A DNA stretch of 64,000 nt from Conchocele bisecta (Eukaryota > Mollusca > Bivalvia > Lucinida > Thyasiridae): positions 52,165,131 to 52,229,130 of the forward strand of contig CM055268.1 in assembly GCA_029237695.1 (NCBI GenBank). Reading direction: 5' to 3'. Both the position numbers and the translations under genes were made by a program. Positions 28,401 to 40,400 of the stretch are shown here, piece after piece (the first letter of the stretch is position 1; each line of letters starts with the position of its first letter). The notes under the pieces are model-generated. The model did not search any database, was not told where the DNA came from, and was given only the letters and a program-made list of their open reading frames with translations.

Positions 28401-31400
28401 ACCATGGTCATCCACCACAGTGACTTCTAACATGATGATGTCATTTTTGCCGTCGTGTGTATTTATCCATCCGGGAAATGTGCTTCGAACGTTTACTGCA
28501 CAAATTTGTGCAAGTGAAAGCATGGGTCACATGATCTAATTGTCCATTTTACATTTTACACATCCTGTGACGTCACGCTTTACTGAACAATGCAACAACA
28601 TGCACTGTACTTAACGTAACGCCAACCCATGTATAACGAATGAGTATAGATGACTACTAACAGTTAAATACCGGAGCAGCCATTTCACAGTTCATAATAT
28701 TTGTACAATGTGAACTCCGACTGAAATGGATGCCACTGAGACGTTGGTAGTCTTTGCCAACAGAATAGGTTATAACGTTTCAATAGCGGGTTTGTGGATT
28801 ATCAAGCATCATACATATATCATACAAGTTCATAATTTTAATGACAAATGTTAATTCTGAAATTGTTTTCATAGTTCTATAACTATTTTGTTTTAAACTG
28901 TGTACAACCATGCTTCTACCAAATAGCACAGCCCATGATCCGCAGATGCGCAGGCTGATCTGGGTTTACACTGCCACACACGTGACGTCCAAATACCAGC
29001 TGTGATCCCATATATTTGTATCCCACTATCAAACAGTGCAGATGCATAGGCTGATGTGAAGTTGCGCTGGCAGTACACATTATAAGGTCCCTTTACTCTG
29101 CTGTGATCCCAGACATTCCTACACCATAGTGAGTCCCACAACCCCCAGAGAGCCCCGTATTGTACTGACAGGGGCTGCCAGGAATCCCAACGTGATTGGC
29201 TTGTTCCTGTCTCAGCTGTGATCCCAGACATTCCTACACCACAGTGAGCCCTAAAACCCCCAGAGAGCCCCGTATTGTACTGACAGGGGCTGCCAGGTGT
29301 CCCACCCCCAGAGAGCCCCGTATTGTACTTATAGGGGCTGCCAGGTATCCCACCCCCAGAGAGCCCCGTATTGTACTGACAGGGGCTGCCAGGTATCCCA
29401 CCCCCAGAGAGCCCCGTATTGTACTTATAGGGGCTGCCAGGTATCCCACCCCCAGAGAGCCCCGTATTGTACTTATAGGGGCTGCCAGGTATCCCACCCC
29501 CAGAGCCCCATATTGTACTTACAGGGGCTGCCAGGTATCCCACCCCCAGAGCCCCATATTGTACTTACAGGGGCTGCCAGGTATCCCACCCCAAGAGAGC
29601 CCTGTATTGTACTTACAGGGGCTGCCAGGTATCCCACCCCCAGAGCCCTGTATTGTACTTACAGGGGCTGCCAGGTATCCCACCCCCAGAGCCCCGTATT
29701 GAACTTACTAGCTGCCAGGTATCACCCCCAGAGAGCAGTATTGTACTTATAGGGGCTGCCAGGTATCCAACCCCCAGAGAGCCCCGTATTGTACTTACAG
29801 GGCTGCCAGGTATCCCACCCCCAGAGAGCCCCGTATTGTACTGACAGGGGCTGCCAGGTATCTCACCTCCAGAGAGCCCCGTATTGTACTTATAGGGGCT
29901 GCCAGGTATCCCACCCCCAGAGAGCCCTGTATTGTACTTACAGGGGCTGCCAGATATCCCACCCCCAGAGAGCCCTGTATTGTACTTACAGGGGCTGCCA
30001 GGTATCCCAACCCCACAGAGCCCTGTATTGTACTGATAGGGGATGCCAGGTATCCCACCCCCAGAGAGCCCCGTATTGTACTTACAGGGGCTGCCAGGTA
30101 TCCCACCCCCAGAGAGCCCTGTATTGTACTTACAGGGGCTGACAGGTATCCCACCCCCAGAGAGCCCTGTATTGTACTGACAGGGGTTGCCAGGTATCCC
30201 ACCCCCAGAGAGCCCTGTATTGTACTTACAGGGCTGCCAGGTATCCCACCCAGAGCCCCGTATTGTACTTATAGGGGCTGCCAGACCCACAAGAGAGCCC
30301 TGTATTGTATTATAGGGGCTGCCAGGTACCCACCCCCACAGCCCCATATTGTACTTAGGGGCTGTCCAGGATCCCACAGAGCCCCTAGTCTTACAGCTGC
30401 CCCAGATCACTGAGGGCCCCGTATTGTACTTACAGCTGCCCTATTGTATCTCCTACCCCCAGAGCCCCATATTGTACTTACAGGGGCTGCCAGGATCCCA
30501 CCCCACCCCCAGTAGACCCCGGGTATGTACTACAGCTGGGGCTGGCAGGTATCCTCCCACCCCCAGAGTATACTACAGGGGCTGCCAGTATCCCACCCCC
30601 AGACCCTTGACAGGGGTCCTGCCAGTATAGGGGAGCCAGGTATCCCGTATTGTACTTACAGGGGCTGCCAGGTATCCCACCCCCAGAGCCCGTATTGGGG
30701 TATGACCCAGGGACTTCCAGGTATCCCACCCCCAGAGCCCTGTATTGTACGACAGGGGCTGCCAGGTATCCCACCCACCCCCAGAGAGCTGTCTTGTACT
30801 TACAGGGGCTGCCAGGTATCCCACCCACCCCCAGAGCCCCGTATTGTACTTACAGGGCTGCCAGGTATCCCACCCCCAGAGCCCCATATTGTCTTAGGGG
30901 CTGCCGGTACACAGAGAACCCAGCCCACTATTGGTACCCCTTACACAGGGCGCCAGGTATCCCACCCCCACCGCCAGAGCCCCGTATTGTACCCTTTACA
31001 GGGCTGCCAGGTTACCCACCCCAGAGGCCCCGTATTCTTTACTGAAAGGGGACTACGCCAGGTACCCATCCCCCACCACCCAGAAGCCCTGTAATTGGTA
31101 CTTACAGGGGCTGCCAGGTATCCCACCTCCCAGAGCCCCGTAATTGTACTGAACCAGGGCTGGCCCCCAGGTATCCCACCCCCAAGAAGCCCTGTATTGT
31201 TACTTACAGGGGCTGGGCCAGGTATCCCCCCCCAGAGAGGGCCCCGTATTGTACGTATAAGGGCTTGCCCAGGTAAATCCCACCCCCAGAGCCCCATATT
31301 GTACATACAGGGGCTTGCCAGGTATCCCACCCCCAGAGCCCCATATTGTACTGTACAAGGGGATGCCAGGGTACTCCCACCCCCAAGAGAGCCCTTATTT

Positions 31401-37400: not shown

Positions 37401-40400
37401 CCAGGTATCCCACCCTCAGAGAGCCCTGTATTGTACTTACAGGGGCTGCCAGGTATCCCTCCCCCAGAGCCCCATATTGTACTTACAGGGGCTGCCAGGA
37501 ATCCCACCCCCAGAGCCCCGTATTGTACTTACAGGGGCTGCCAGGTATCCCACCCCCAGAGCCCCATGTTGTACTTACAGGGTCTGCCAGGGATCCCACC
37601 CCCAGAGCCCCGTATTGTACTTACAGGGGCTGTCAGGTATCCCACCCCAGAGCTGTATTGTATGACAGGGGGCAGGTATCCCCCAGAGAGCGATTGTTAC
37701 TCCAGGGGAGGATCCCACCCCCGAGCCCGTATTGTATGAGTGCCAGGGGACTCCACCCCCAGAGAGCCCTGTATTGTACTTAAAGGGGCTGCCAGGTATC
37801 CCACCCCACCCCAGAGCCTGTATTGTACTGACAGGGGCTGCCAGGTATCCCACCCCAGAGAGCTGTATTTTGACTTAGGGGCTGCAGTATCCCACCCCCA
37901 GAGAGCCCTGTATCGGTACCCCCTTACCCCAGGGGGGGACTGCCAGGTATCCACCCCCAGAGCCCGTATTGTATGACAGGGGCTGCCAGGTATACCACAG
38001 ATGAGCCCGTATTGTACTACAGGGGCTGGCCCCAGCCCGTATTACCACCCAACCCCCAGAGAGCCCTGTATTGTACTTACAGGGGCTGCCAGGTATCCCA
38101 CCCCCAGAGCCCCGTATTGTACTGACAGGGGCTGCCAGGTATCCCACCCCCAGAGAGCCCCGTATTGTACTGACAGGGGCTGCCAGGTATCCCACCAGAG
38201 AGCCCGTTGTACTTATAGGGGCTGCCAGTATCCCACCCCCAGAGACCCCGTATTTGTATTATAGGGGCTGCCAGGTATCCCCCCCCAGAGCCCCATATTG
38301 TACTTAGGGGCTGCCAGGTATCCCACCCCCAGAGCCCCTATTGTACTTCAGGGGCTGCCAGGTATCCCACCCCAGAGAGCCCTGTATTGTACTGGACAGG
38401 GGCTGCCAGGTATCCCACCCCAGAGGCCCTGTATTGTACTTACAGGGGCTGCCAGGTATCCCACCCCAGAGAGCCCTGTATTGTACTTACAGGGGCTGCC
38501 AGGTATCCCACCTGTATTGTACTTACAGGGGCTGCCAGGTATCCCACCCCCAGAGAGCCCTGTATTGTACTTACAGGGGCTGCCAGGTATCCCACCCCCA
38601 GAGAGCCCCGTATTGTACTTACAGGGGCTGCCAGGTATCCCACTATGATTGGCTTGTTCCTGTCCCCAGAGAAAAGGTCGTACGGCCCCCGCGTACTCGT
38701 TACTTTATCAACGGTCTCTTCCGCGAAACTCTTAAAATTGTACGTTCCTGGACCGAGCTTTGAACCCTACAATAAACAAGATAAATTATTACCATACATG
38801 TACATGTCTTGTTTTTTTATTTTTAAATTTCATCTGTCCAACACAAGTTAATTAAATTAGTCTATGTATTGTGTAACAGAGATTAGTATTAGTATTAGTA
38901 CAAGGGCCCGTTTCATTAACCCTGCTAATGCTGAGTATAAGCCATTATGTTTGCGTAAAATCCTAAATATTTTCCTTCTATGCGATCAGAAGTATATGTC
39001 GTGACCACCATTTGAACCGTCTCATCAATACGGGTTAAATGAGTGGTGACAACATATACATTCATTGAGAAAAAATAAAAATAAAATATTTAATAAATTT
39101 CACACCTGTAAAGGTGTATTCCGAAAGTCTGTTAGTGCAAAATTGAAATTTAAAAGAAACTTTGATCTGACCGTGGATATCAACAAATATTTCATAGGTG
39201 TGATCATATTTCTTTATATATGTACAAGTAGCATTCGGGAACCACGTTAATGTGACAGACACATTATTAAATTTCTTTGTAGAAACGTTTTCATCGTACA
39301 AAGTTTAGTGCAAAGGACCCATGGTGTCAATAGCCTCTGACATATAATACAATATATAATGTGGTGATATGCCATTTCAATTTTAGAGCTTGTCTCCTGG
39401 GATCAGTTAATAATCAATATTATATGCCACTATTTATCATATTTACAAACAAAGTCATGGCAATAGACACCGTATTTAGACATGACAGGTGAATAAACTC
39501 TATGTGGGACTGGAGAAATGGGGCATAAGAAATTTAAGACATCCCATGCGATTTTGTACCTAAGAACATATATACATGCAATTTTTCATGAAATATATTT
39601 TACAGAAAATGCAATATTTTCTGTAAATGCTGTCGAAAGATGACAAATTTTTCATAGCAAATGCGGAATAGTATTTTGTCATCTTTTGAAATCATTTATG
39701 GAAAATATCGTAAATTTTGTACATATTTTACACGAGATATCACACATGTTCTTAGGTACAAAATCGCATGGCGCGTCTCATTTGTGGATATTCAAACTTC
39801 TGAAGCCTATTTCACCAACATTGCAAAGCATACTTATCCATCTAGCAAAGGATACTTTGAGGGAGAAATCATTTATTTTTCCCGAAATGCATTATTTTAT
39901 ATAGAACTAACGACTGCATATATTTGATGATTAAAAGTATGCAGAATTATTATACTGAATTGATTACATTATCACAGCCAAAATGGTTGTGATGATGTAA
40001 TAAATTCAGTATAATAAAAAATAATAATAAAGTTATACTTAAACAGAAAATTTCTCCCTCCAAGTGCACTTAACAAGAACAGTATACTTTGCAATTTTGG
40101 TGAAATAGGCTACAGGTCTTCTAGTGAAACTGATAATGACCAAAACTATAAAATAGAAGACATATAGGCGTTTCATTGACCGAATGGCGAACAGTGTAGG
40201 CCTTGATCAGACTGCGCGGATGCGCAGGCTGATCTGGGACTACACTGGTCGCATAACCCATAAGACACATTTCTGCAGTAAAAGCCACATACATCTTTCA
40301 TACCCAAAATTAAACACAACAATAATCAGATAGTAATCATAAGGACAATTTGGTCATTGTTAAGTGAAACCTTTTAGGCTTTCAGACCCTTGACATAACT

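Follow-up and report, generated by a model that had tools for sequence, protein, structure and literature searches.

Minisatellites that multiply a splice donor have already been described, in the amphioxus 'mirages' and above all in the human gene ABCA7. The variable number tandem repeat (VNTR) in intron 18 of ABCA7 is reported to consist of a 25-bp unit including the exon-18 donor and to span 298-10,678 bp, equivalent to up to about 427 units; retention of one unit is given as 2 +/- 1%, independent of VNTR length, and longer VNTRs are described to go along with more skipping of exon 19 and lower expression (PMC5954066). Mirages are tandem duplications of exon-intron boundaries which reportedly leave regular splicing undisturbed; they were described for Adh3, the globin genes BflGb6 and BflGb9, TnC, and PGBD5, with unit lengths of 10-72 bp in Adh3 (PMC3087553, PMC3902484). 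Internal tandem repeats at exon-intron boundaries, averaging 30-bp units in about four copies, were furthermore reported for genes within human segmental duplications (PMC2812944). Here, we describe a 48-bp donor-spanning minisatellite in intron 5 of the gene CIMAP2 (LEXM), located on the minus strand of a 64,000-nucleotide stretch of contig CM055268.1 (the window, i.e., the whole stretch of DNA analyzed, to which all positions refer). It is a large new example in a bivalve-like gene. A literature search aimed at bivalves yielded one general review, and the papers listed by further searches (one of them listing 8 of 209) show no donor-spanning array from any bivalve as judged by titles and the beginnings of abstracts.

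We consider the array to be a tolerated donor-spanning VNTR within an intact CIMAP2, the real donor of the preceding exon being mostly used, and assign this reading a probability of roughly 72%. The original prediction had already offered a tolerated slippage accident as one option, and this is the best reading. The features carrying it are as follows:

29258..38643, minus strand, 48-bp minisatellite of 194 segmented units, each combining the end of exon D, a donor-like site and the intron start (wrap-around alignment)
38617..38622, minus strand, true donor of exon D, GTAAGT, starting at 38622
38623..38766, minus strand, exon D, i.e., coding exon 5, 144 bases, 48 codons, phase 0/0
29141..29211, minus strand, fossil exon-D end with 42 exonic bases, the donor GTCAGT and an intron start (alignment to the live boundary)
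29096..29304, minus strand, two-copy 115-bp unit of exon end, donor and a longer intron stretch (Tandem Repeats Finder and alignment)

Tandem Repeats Finder placed the 48-bp array at 29264-38643 with 196.9 copies (score 4032), and the array makes up about 85% of the 11,004-bp intron 5. Each unit comprises 19-21 exonic bases of exon D and 27-29 intronic bases, with two bases of the unit border being ambiguous because GT stands at both joins; the last 21 bases of exon D are the first copy of the exonic part. This agrees with the original prediction of a unit built from the last 19 bases of exon D plus 29 intron bases, in an array starting at the true donor (38622/38623), as exon D was found at 38766-38623 and its donor from 38622. 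The predicted number of about 200 units fits both the segmentation and the Tandem Repeats Finder copy number but stands only as an approximation, the middle zone of the array being unreliable. Most units were furthermore expected to carry the donor or a mutated form of it. Among 197 segmented units (three edge units counted), raw matches gave 82 GTAAGT, 20 ATAAGT and 17 GTCAGT cores, the share of intact donors being approximate; the two cleaner zones flanking this middle, 57 units together, contained 27 GTAAGT, 10 GTCAGT, 6 ATAAGT and 2 ATCAGT cores, and 12 others. The edge unit on the exon side is identical to the consensus. At the far edge, units 195-197 are divergent and contain longer exon and intron pieces.

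The far end also records where the array came from. In one of the two 115-bp copies, the exonic portion measures 42 instead of 21 bases, and the longer intron-like stretch attached to it continues into other intron sequence. The fossil matches the live exon-D boundary at 66 of 71 bases, the printed alignment showing five mismatches. The part of exon D ahead of its last 21 bp aligned to the far array end with a score of 38, which is not attributable to chance: 1000 shuffles reached 24 at most, and the best scores elsewhere in the window were 26 and 22 on the two strands. The exon match thereby extends past the unit itself, which substantiates the earlier claim that the repeat was built out of this exon's end and its donor. 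As this 42-bp exon tail is joined to seemingly original intron, it was this boundary of the gene from which the array expanded; the 115-bp pair is an apparent remnant of the original intron start, and the fossil end suggests that intron 5 predates the array. The 14-residue peptides of the fossil and the live boundary differ, and the first differing position is a T in 39 of 120 aligned homologs (the best 120 of 287 listed) and in 9 of the 13 nearest, so that the fossil seems to keep an older codon. The motif GTGGGA occurs at the start of the exonic part of the unit and again in the intron just past the fossil, making it a possible seed of the 48-bp duplication.

The host gene has nine exons and is intact, in accordance with its earlier characterization as live-looking. 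Spliced together, they amount to 1314 bases with an open frame of 437 codons from an ATG to a TAG stop, and GT-AG borders are present at all eight introns. Exon 1 lies in the adjoining 10 kb (L009, 1096-1047); besides exon D, the window hosts the following exons, all from the spliced gene model:

62378..62465, minus strand, coding exon 2
61346..61516, minus strand, coding exon 3
42289..42546, minus strand, exon C, i.e., coding exon 4
27451..27618, minus strand, exon E, i.e., coding exon 6, 168 bases, 56 codons, phase 0/0
20266..20394, minus strand, coding exon 7
19358..19482, minus strand, coding exon 8
10868..11048, minus strand, coding exon 9 including the stop codon

Exons 5 and 6 both have lengths divisible by three and phase 0, so the frame would survive skipping of either. 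The Pfam family PF07004 (Sperm-tail PG-rich repeat) was found in the predicted protein, and the best named relatives of a six-exon query were CIMAP2/LEXM of Ruditapes (82%) and Dreissena (81%), with one further record at 86%. The relatives are annotated as ciliary microtubule-associated protein 2 or lymphocyte expansion molecule, and the gene encodes a PG-repeat ortholog of these with an unbroken reading frame. Mammalian CIMAP2 is described as detected only in sperm axonemes (PMC11779644). A sequence search of the PDB with a 332-aa partial protein returned nothing at E <= 0.001; the exon D peptide alone matched no Pfam family and gave a single PDB match at chance level. Two observations on the gene stand apart from the array. 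Compared with P0001, the nearest homolog, exon 9 (10868-11048, minus strand) encodes a 14-residue insertion near YRSTTHAALAQDMK that has a YRS-like repeat at either end. The intron piece upstream of exon D (38911-39100) is a dispersed repeat, its listed genome copies (40 of 2032 candidates scored for 39100-38911) being 86-91% alike and partly matching the other strand too.

The sequence quality differs strongly along the array and delimits the following zone:

30250..36982, minus strand, insertion-rich array middle, 137 of 194 units, about 6.7 kb (unit alignment)

Insertions per unit rise from 0.97 in the proximal zone (36 units) to 3.34 in the middle (137 units) and drop to 0.00 in the distal zone (21 units). 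In the middle, 372 of 457 insertions repeat a neighboring base, compared with 215 in one random draw, and rare substitutions reach 1.98 per unit vs 0.50-0.52 elsewhere. Proximal units 14-22 are irregular as well, and deletions per unit peak on the proximal side (2.81). Insertions of this kind are what unpolished long reads look like. The middle 6.7 kb accordingly looks like uncorrected long-read sequence, rendering unit count and intact-donor share approximate; both array ends are beyond doubt. Within the unit order, the similarity within five pairs of 10-unit blocks reaches 0.90-0.93, compared with 0.889 at most in 30 shuffled orders, and variant sharing between neighboring units is 0.690 vs 0.668 in 500 shuffles (z = 3.4, the top shuffle also rounding to 0.690). 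Unequal exchange of blocks would yield such recurring blocks and slight likeness of neighbors; misassembly could too. It is conceivable, though we tend to doubt it, that a shorter real array was lengthened by stitched unpolished reads and that the 9.4 kb and about 190 units are partly artefact. The insertion load of the middle against the insertion-free distal zone fits this explanation, as does the close repetition of the clean units 176-185 by the middle units 81-90 (0.911). However, the array is anchored at both ends by gene sequence flanking it, and minisatellites also duplicate blocks naturally. Exon D moreover was found once in the assembly, hence no second haplotype copy of it was seen.

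The decoys closest to exon D raise the question of a coding role:

38485..38574, minus strand, first three decoy donors, GTAAGT starting at 38574, 38526 and 38490

They follow the true donor by 48, 96 and 132 bases, share its identical 11-base site, and the sequence up to each of them is in frame and free of stops, corresponding to extensions by 16, 32 and 44 residues. Given that 48 bp equal 16 codons, the array could in principle generate in-frame isoforms, with these decoys being used at a real level and the array tuning the PG-repeat protein. We regard this as unlikely. The frame is lost at the fourth decoy (+179), and reading on leads to a stop. At the D/E junction, all 120 aligned homologs lack residues between the P and K columns (though relatives need not share the array), and the array-encoded peptide had no match at E <= 1 among 7996 candidates scored from public proteins. 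Taken further, the array might be envisaged as a length-tunable exon: donor choice would add steps of 16 residues to a sperm-axoneme protein, because a unit amounts to 16 codons and the first decoys are identical to the true donor, while unequal exchange would feed variants into the last seven codons, letting splice choice and protein length vary between animals. This is a long shot.

Similarly improbable is a selected function of the array as decoy or speed bump, in which the row of donors, through U1 binding, or the G-rich repeats regulate splicing or transcription. In its favor, 82 of the 197 units have an intact GTAAGT core, and the sense strand is G-rich, with 579 G-runs vs 213 C-runs and 36 four-run G motifs vs 0-7 in five mononucleotide shuffles; this G-richness might also favor instability. 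The donor itself, however, is not specially conserved. In the 57 cleaner units, the mean column variability is 0.108 for donor positions +1 to +6, 0.044 for the exon part (columns 0-17) and 0.101 for the remaining intron part, donor columns do not differ from all others (p = 0.86), and the five most variable columns include positions +1 and +3. As the donor columns vary like the rest, there is no sign of selection on the decoys, and selection for them was rejected. Hairpins hiding the donors were rejected likewise: fold z-scores are near those of shuffles for four sequences of the 48-bp array (-0.43 to -0.97) and for the 59-bp unit of a second array described below (+0.67), and unit columns 21 (donor +1) and 33, a would-be pair, do not covary. 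A structural role of the 48-bp unit is consequently not supported, and the same fold energies count against a regulatory array.

With respect to the genome, a query of two units gave 102 listed matches in the 1.89-Gb assembly, with one candidate place scored and very common words skipped, and all 102 fall inside this array; elsewhere in the window, the unit was not found at E <= 0.01. Dispersed satellite DNA was rejected on these grounds, and the occurrence of the unit as an unrelated satellite at other loci, named beforehand as evidence that would speak against the proposal, did not materialize among the matches listed. A scan of viral contigs for the 48-bp unit gave 0 exact matches and is of little weight. 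That an unrelated satellite or mobile element landed next to exon D, its likeness to the exon being coincidental, can practically be dismissed, for although interspersed repeats are common nearby (39100-38911 having many genome-wide copies), the unit is not listed elsewhere and the exon match runs 21 bases beyond it at the far end.

A second donor-spanning array is found at exon C:

42002..42295, minus strand, 59-bp unit in five copies, containing the last 7 exon bases and the donor

Its four decoys are GTAAGC at 42231, 42172 and 42053 and GTAAAC at 42113; the distance of the first from the donor (+57) is a multiple of three, those of the other three are not. The array ends in a 33-bp inverted repeat (41965-42034) with 94% complementarity and 4 nt between the arms, representing a reverse copy of its own intronic part. 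A single 37-bp copy of the exon C acceptor region, matching it at 84%, lies 110 bp upstream of the real one (42641-42677, minus strand). Local copies are common in the window: for 24-27% of random 60-mers taken from outside the main array, a copy spanning their center is found within 1 kb. Seven donors and eight acceptors were checked (some positions being a few bases off and the exon 1 donor lying outside the window), and 3 of these 15 boundaries have local copies, namely the donors of C and D and the acceptor of C (P = 0.74-0.81 vs random positions). An enrichment of exon boundaries among local repeats was rejected on this basis, which also argues against a regulatory row of donors, and an array hitting an exon boundary comes as no surprise in such a background.

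Returning to the tolerated VNTR, we infer the following order of events. The boundary of exon D and intron 5 would first have been duplicated in tandem as a longer unit, with 42 exonic bases in a total of about 115 bp. Multiplication of a 48-bp piece would have followed, short direct repeats such as GTGGGA being the probable seed, and growth may have proceeded by unequal exchange or slippage, multi-unit blocks included. Since transcription reaches the true donor before the array downstream of it, most transcripts should still have exon D ending at 38623. The array would be near-neutral. The next identical donors may serve in a small fraction of transcripts, and with the first three of them the frame is kept. 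Effects on splice choice are plausible from the ABCA7 VNTR, and long alleles may, by analogy, raise skipping of exon 6 or lower expression. Several points weigh against the tolerated VNTR. The true donor is not stronger than the GTAAGT decoys (U1 duplex energy of -6.8 kcal/mol for both; GTCAGT is weak at -2.7) nor more accessible by folding (mean unpaired probability of 0.19 vs 0.22-0.37 for decoys). It must therefore be favored by proximity alone. One of the 120 homologs, P0093 from a coral, has a divergent 12-residue stretch starting just past the junction, unlike the repeat peptide. In addition, neither the length of the array nor the order of its units can be trusted over the middle 6.7 kb, and the use of the canonical donor is a prediction from the sequence.

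With this locus, donor-spanning minisatellites, so far described from lancelets and human ABCA7, are extended to the genome of a bivalve-like animal, at a size near that of the largest ABCA7 alleles. It provides a natural test of how the spliceosome chooses among near-identical donors where the unit keeps the frame. At the same time, it is a warning that unpolished sequence can give misleading array counts and that a repeat-rich genome can produce boundary-spanning arrays by chance.

Among the known systems, intron gain by tandem genomic duplication (PMC4974935) shares with this locus the principle that tandem duplication drives a change of intron structure. It differs in that no new intron is implied here, the fossil end suggesting an older one. 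The human segmental-duplication repeats are likewise boundary minisatellites able to alter splicing and stay in the exon (PMC2812944), but are described as putative new introns in recent paralogs, whereas here a large array sits in a seemingly existing intron. Closer are the mirages, minisatellite-like duplications over a boundary that comprise exonic and intronic parts with splice signals and have edge units diverging from a homogenized core. The present unit equally joins exonic and intronic sequence of one boundary (19-21 and 27-29 bases, with 42 exonic bases in the far copy), and block similarity exceeds that of shuffles, with divergence of the edge being seen at the far end only. The mirages of BflGb6 are small (6 and 3 units of 150-160 bp), in contrast to about 190 units on the donor side here. 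In comparison to the ABCA7 VNTR, whose 25-bp unit is described as starting with the donor GT and so shifts the frame upon retention, the 48-bp unit preserves the frame and has 19-21 exonic bases in it; for ABCA7, both length variation and effects on splicing have been measured, while the present array is known from the sequence of one assembly. The two are nonetheless of the same kind: the ABCA7 VNTR is described as C-rich, counted as a feature in common with our array (PMC5954066), and both begin at the donor of an exon and include it, allow for hundreds of slightly varying units, and reside in a working gene. As in ABCA7, the array adjoins the exon together with its donor, spanning the exon-D boundary from 38643 to 29258.

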